From positions 1 to 41,328 of the IMG/VR virus record IMGVR_UViG_3300021425_000069: a stretch of 41,328 bases of DNA, one strand, 5' to 3'. The notes beneath the pieces are model-generated. The model worked only from the letters and a program-made list of their open reading frames with translations. It was not told where the DNA came from and ran no database searches. How positions within the stretch are numbered: position 1 is the stretch's first letter; every line of letters starts with the position of its first letter. Shown here one piece after another: positions 1,444 through 1,498 of the stretch. A program made the translations under genes and the position numbers. The DNA is from a virus.

Positions 1444-1494
1444 AGTTTTGATAGCATAATACGCTAAATATCCAGGAGTTATGCTATCAAAACT
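1444..1494. repeat. perfect 16-bp inverted repeat enclosing the ribosome binding site
   Basis: The arms AGTTTTGATAGCATAA (1444-1459) and its exact reverse complement (1479-1494) flank a 19-base loop (1460-1478). The loop ends in AGGAG (1474-1478). The ATG of the next gene (1495) directly follows the right arm, and its A can extend the stem to 17 bp by pairing with T1443. A six-codon mini-ORF lies within the right arm. No T-tract follows, so it is not a typical terminator. It could be a translational control hairpin, an RNase site or a protein operator. Confidence 0.8.
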
Positions 1495-1498
1495 ATGA
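1481..1498 (+). CDS. possible 5-residue leader peptide (MLSKL)
   Basis: ATG CTA TCA AAA CTA TGA runs inside the right arm of the inverted repeat, and its TGA overlaps the ATG of the next gene (ATGA at 1495-1498). AGGAG is only 2 bases upstream of this ATG but 16 bases upstream of ATG 1495. Ribosomes may therefore load poorly at the mini-ORF and reinitiate. Speculative: it may simply be a by-product of the palindrome. Confidence 0.25.
   Translation: MLSKL

Follow-up and report, generated by a model that had tools for sequence, protein, structure and literature searches.

The window, which is the whole stretch of 41,328 nucleotides that was analysed, encodes baseplate, head-tail and terminase genes. 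Near its left end, an inverted repeat lies between a small gene, called gene A here (1238 to 1411), and a gene for a 59-residue protein (1495 to 1674); both genes, and the promoter elements and arms of the window described below, are on the plus strand. The flanks of the repeat resemble marine Synechococcus T4-like phages. Gene A encodes 57 residues, matches PHROG 12516 (E = 7.6e-21) and is a conserved upstream neighbour of the locus. It is preceded by a sigma-70-like sequence, TTGACA-17-TATAGT (1182 to 1210, 11 of 12 matches), which is a candidate early promoter. The same kind of promoter was present at all 22 loci where the start of gene A was located, the window included. Between the end of gene A at 1411 and the palindrome at 1443 no terminator-like site was detected. 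The palindrome has no T run and was rejected as a transcription terminator.

A late-promoter box, ATAAATA (1164 to 1170), was recognised by its motif 5' of gene A. It stands directly in front of the early promoter, the two together spanning 1164 to 1210, and the relatives of gene A showed the same pairing with a TAAATA-type box ahead of the early promoter. Downstream of the 59-residue protein gene, two similar intergenic stretches (1676 to 1712 and 1937 to 1972, ctgggccc..aaagtgtc..agtagtataag) precede small ORFs and resemble a repeated promoter or leader. Which small genes follow (1724 to 2932 in the window, and at the related loci) depends on the contig, and they form a hypervariable gene block.

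The repeat consists of two 17-nt arms (1443 to 1459 and 1479 to 1495) that are 100% complementary and enclose a loop of 19 nt. The original prediction had described exact arms of 16 nt, so the complementarity was confirmed and extended by one base. In the 41-kb window this was the only perfect 17-mer inverted repeat with a gap of up to 60 nt, and none was found in 60 first-order Markov shuffles. The predicted RNA hairpin has a folding energy of −21.8 kcal/mol, and the A of the ATG at 1495 is the closing base of its stem. The left arm, with the core TTTTGATAGCATAA, comes close to being a palindrome in its own right, with 5 of 7 position pairs matching; the right arm is its inverted copy. The loop contains a late-promoter box, CTAAATA (1464 to 1470), which is kept in the loops of relatives, followed by AGGAG (1474 to 1478), which had been proposed as the Shine-Dalgarno sequence. 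Within the right arm a leader ORF, MLSKL, starts at 1481 and ends at 1498, its stop codon overlapping the ATG at 1495 as ATGA. AGGAG, the abutting ATG and the leader ORF were all located where the original prediction had placed them. No match for the hairpin above the gathering score was obtained in Rfam, the sub-threshold matches being chance matches to microRNA precursors.

Relatives of the locus were found by the dozen, all of them on IMG/VR metagenomic cyanophage contigs. Those that encode the small protein alone, referred to as the stand-alone set, comprise 35 loci with 28 distinct proteins. Neither the small protein nor the palindrome was found in the isolate phages searched, and isolates that have gene A carry a different sequence at the position of the palindrome. 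The bacterial genomes searched contained no relatives. Exact copies of the arms occur in the window just as the one pair. In six contigs of 76 to 284 kb the arm motif was likewise present solely as this pair, adjoining a single copy of the gene, and a contig with the HNH form of the gene (see below) gave no match to the exact motif. On these counts a repeat family or regulon was rejected.

The conserved element of the loop is the T4-type late-promoter box, which was present in nearly all loops, with the variants TATATA and CAAATA in a few. The loop is 19 to 20 nt long in the stand-alone loci (30 nt in L077) and typically reads CCCCCC(C/A)TAAATACCCCCAG or a near variant, and the box is separated from the right arm by 7 to 9 nt. 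Runs of 5 to 7 C flank the box in these loops, with G instead in L054, L058 and L143. For S-PM2 and other cyanophages the late promoter has been given as NATAAATA (PMC2984593). In the window, the box was found 25 to 42 nt 5' of 6 of the 23 late-region ORFs, where 0.44 were expected, and the ORFs concerned fall among the baseplate and head-tail genes. On this sequence evidence, these phages use TAAATA, preceded by A, C or T, as their late-promoter box. Since T4 late boxes are situated about one helical turn 5' of the transcription start (PMC2988020), we infer that the late RNA starts near 1476, inside AGGAG. With its promoter in the loop, the late mRNA would begin there and would exclude the left arm. 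The hairpin of the original prediction, which needs transcription from upstream of 1460, would then be lost from the late mRNA and be left to RNA initiated further upstream. Such a late start comes near to the condition under which the original prediction itself was to fail.

The original prediction had interpreted the loop, the leader ORF and the stem as a purpose-built translational switch, possibly a thermosensor, a reinitiation control or an RNase III-type site. The anatomy is present in the window as described, but it did not recur in the relatives. AGGAG was missing from 33 of the 35 stand-alone loops and, because it is confined to the window and L034, the arrangement with a Shine-Dalgarno sequence in the loop is peculiar to these two. 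The leader ORF was missing from L032, L077 and roughly half the HNH-type loci; where present, it arises as a by-product of the palindromic sequence. Since neither element is conserved, the thermosensor, the Shine-Dalgarno sequence exposed in the loop and reinitiation via MLSKL were rejected, and the RNase III-type site was dropped along with them. As the late RNA would also be without the left arm, we regard a switch of this design as highly improbable. In the comparison that had been proposed as a check, the hairpin was conserved in the relatives, with changes on both sides of the stem.

These changes are concentrated in the arm cores, which read GATAGC, GTTAAC, GATATC or GCTAGC and are identical in both arms. 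Among 16 distinct sequences, both-sided changes were observed at 2 of the 17 pairs, with three pair types at each and 14 cells concerned. No one-sided or G-U intermediates were found at these two core pairs. The arms follow the protein encoded next to them. EMSII-like sequences at residues 11 to 15 occur with GTTAAC and xG(V/S/A)M(I/V) sequences with the other cores (16:0 and 0:12 for the 28 distinct proteins). Counted for each GxTA half-site in the stand-alone set, x was T with EMSII and A or C with xGVMI in 112 of 112 cases. Further loci with EMRII, EMVII and EMNIL proteins have GTTAAC and are consistent with this, and a third type, TTERM with the arm core GTCC, was found in L165-L169. The window and L034 have the same loop and near-identical flanks, yet neither arm nor the protein motif is the same, and the loop type is independent of the arm type. 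In a tree built from codon 17 onward, both traits switched up to 7 times, at least three times on well-supported branches. On such branches there were 3 independent pairs, and in each of them arm and motif had switched together; these 3 are all the switches that are well supported. Because residues 11 to 15 are encoded only about 30 to 45 bp from the right arm, linkage over 30 to 95 bp adds to the association between arm and protein and is not fully removable from it.

The 59-residue protein (MRPLKYRNLGPGSMIRVP...) shares its domain with cyanophage HNH endonucleases, which carry it at the C-terminus. This domain or a relative of it forms the C-terminus of an HNH endonuclease in L035, L036, L051-L053, L057, L092, L159, L162, L164 and L165-L169. 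The nuclease half of these fusions falls into PHROG 4234 (E 6e-22). It is joined in frame precisely where the small protein begins, and the locus is the same; wherever the position was checked, the fusions were located 3' of gene A. In L165-L169 the fusion ends in a different C-terminal domain, GTTERMRVP.... In L143, another small ORF (VTVVFKPKYHTPGVTVRIRVPEYYHDQIASVLERID...) begins about 169 nt after the start of the small gene and resembles the same domain type. The HNH catalytic domain is absent from the window protein and was found in the fused relatives only. The HNH loci have a late-promoter palindrome of their own, with the arms 30 nt apart where measured. Their arms often have mismatched cores, and most of these loci carry mismatches that do not pair. 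Agreement with the own protein type was seen for 18 of 28 HNH-locus half-sites. Mixed half-sites were frequent at the HNH loci, whereas the half-sites matched in all 28 distinct stand-alone proteins (Fisher 2e-8).

Profile searches of Pfam and PHROG with the 59-residue protein or its domain returned no family. An AlphaFold2 model with a mean pLDDT of 80 predicts an extended segment followed by helices at 19 to 38 and 43 to 58. Ribbon-helix-helix repressors such as Arc, MetJ and CopG are short proteins with an extended segment before two helices, and they bind near-palindromic sites. The 59-residue protein is similarly short, and its variable, apparently extended segment ends in RVP before the two predicted helices. 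Unlike these repressors, it gave no sequence or fold match, and its first helix looks long in the model. No ribbon-helix-helix match was obtained among Pfam and PDB sequences, and Foldseek with the moderately confident model gave no match at E ≤ 0.001. Since Foldseek returned no significant match, the ribbon-helix-helix fold is a lead only, and membership in this class was not accepted on the suggestive pattern.

Apart from pairing with each other, the arms have a symmetry of their own. Across the loci each arm is nearly palindromic (5 to 6 of 7 position pairs). In L032 and L077 the arms deviate so that the stem is broken, and each change raises the symmetry of the arm in which it occurs. The core-to-core spacing is either 19 to 20 or 30 nt, a difference of about one helical turn. 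In L143 (1100 to 1195), and also in L122, a tandem duplication of the left arm and loop has produced three arms with a 33-bp period 5' of the gene.

A DNA operator, which the original prediction had named as the alternative, proved to be the best supported reading, the arm type tracking the protein motif without exception among the 28 distinct proteins. The element is probably an autoregulatory operator pair that flanks the late promoter of the 59-residue protein gene. The small downstream protein, which on its own represents the domain that ends the HNH endonucleases of this locus in other cyanophages, would bind the inverted arms and keep its late expression in check. Each arm (TTTTGxTAyCATAA) may be viewed as a quasi-palindrome of two GxTA half-sites, which would fit one protein dimer. 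Proteins of the EMSII type would read x = T and those of the xGVMI type x = A or C. This reading is weakened by the linkage described above, by the HNH loci, which depart from the half-site rule, by the variant boxes of a few loops, and by the failure of the protein to match a known DNA-binding family in the sequence and Foldseek searches. Since the sites co-vary with the adjoining small protein, a self-controlling gene is favoured over an RNA-only thermosensor or reinitiation switch.

A second layer of control may act on RNA that enters from upstream. With the early promoter of gene A and no terminator-like site behind it, both arms would be present on the early read-through RNA, which could fold into a hairpin up to the start codon. 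This could silence the gene early in infection, as for T4 gene e and I-TevI. The evidence for such an RNA layer appears about evenly balanced, and any translational effect would be confined to the early read-through RNA.

In T4, I-TevI represses itself via an operator that overlaps its late promoter (Edgell et al. 2004, reviewed in PMC2988022), and early/late hairpins of this kind are described for T4 e, I-TevI, segB and Aeh1 mobE (PMC3014915, PMC2988022). As in I-TevI, the candidate binding site at our locus flanks or overlaps the late promoter of its own gene, the putative DNA-binding domain is common to a phage endonuclease, here the HNH fusions, and a hairpin could form on early read-through RNA. 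Unlike I-TevI, the main form here has neither a nuclease nor an intron, and the proposed operator is a near-palindromic inverted pair of arms around the promoter, with arm and protein varying as matching types. In common with T4 gene e, segB and Aeh1 mobE, the late promoter is within the hairpin, so that only RNA initiated upstream is expected to fold. The predicted early promoter upstream and the lack of a terminator-like site after it also correspond to the T4-type hairpin switch. However, the T4 gene e, segB and Aeh1 mobE hairpins hide a Shine-Dalgarno sequence, and most members here have none; in the window, the stem reaches the A of the ATG and AGGAG is in the loop. Their arms also differ from ours, which bear a sequence code matched to the protein. 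Finally, the HNH part of the fusions falls into PHROG 4234, the free-standing HNH homing endonucleases of phages, and as with these its surroundings are small genes of a variable region, whereas the C-terminal domain is outside the tested Pfam and PHROG families and the window protein is that domain alone.

The same precedents (PMC2988022, PMC3014915) speak for a purely RNA-based control of the type of T4 gene e or I-TevI, in which the arms are kept for pairing and not to bind a protein, the early hairpin blocks initiation at 1495 and the late RNA is free. The late box in the loop, the early promoter upstream with no terminator-like site between, the pairing of the arms at almost every stand-alone locus (14 cells with both-sided changes), and the HNH-type palindromes, which still fold at −11.6 to −22.4 kcal/mol, are all in line with it. 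It leaves unexplained why arm and protein co-vary, why each arm is nearly palindromic and why the spacing differs by a helical turn. The two covarying pairs lack G-U and one-sided intermediates, most HNH loci carry non-pairing mismatches, and most loops have no Shine-Dalgarno sequence to hide, so we consider an RNA device on its own unlikely. The absence of intermediates and the change of the arms in matched blocks are the signature of templated correction, and template switching at replication could keep quasi-palindromic arms perfect with little function while the motif hitchhikes. This may be a mutational route, but the match to the protein would not be explained by it. The identity of the arms persists over divergent proteins and loops, the spacing is fixed, and the motif follows the arm type through several switches, which loop and flanks fail to do. 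As the main explanation, template switching is very unlikely.

The palindrome could also be a homing or recombination target, cut by HNH endonucleases with the same domain that spread alleles, the match of arm and protein then resulting from co-transfer. The HNH domain is fused in frame exactly where the small protein starts, and the gene content near the locus is highly variable; both agree with this, and a nuclease that has to leave its own locus uncut would account for the mixed half-sites at the HNH loci. Against it, L159 is an HNH locus in which all half-sites match the own protein type. Both arrangements have the late promoter at a fixed spacing, which calls for a regulatory reason, and a palindrome kept in the HNH and the stand-alone forms is not simply an empty site. 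Homing is compatible with the operator reading, yet as the explanation of the element it is doubtful. A combination of the two is a speculative extension that we hold to be rather improbable: the arms would serve both as the operator of the stand-alone domain and as the HNH recognition site, and the gene without a nuclease would act as a self-regulated factor for immunity or compatibility, directed against homing by the related HNH forms. Exchangeable compatibility types would then be defined by residues 11 to 15 together with the half-site base (T versus A or C), and HNH loci with mixed half-sites would escape self-cleavage.

We return to the autoregulated late promoter as the preferred reading. 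It would be a compact, I-TevI-like form of control in which paired operators surround such a promoter. These results suggest that the T4 scheme, with early silencing by a hairpin and a late operator for an autorepressor, extends in a compact version to uncultured cyanophages. The covariation of the half-site base with the protein segment offers a testable DNA-recognition code taken from natural sequences. A locus that occurs both with and without the nuclease fusion may provide a route to study how a homing endonuclease is tamed or how its nuclease is lost.
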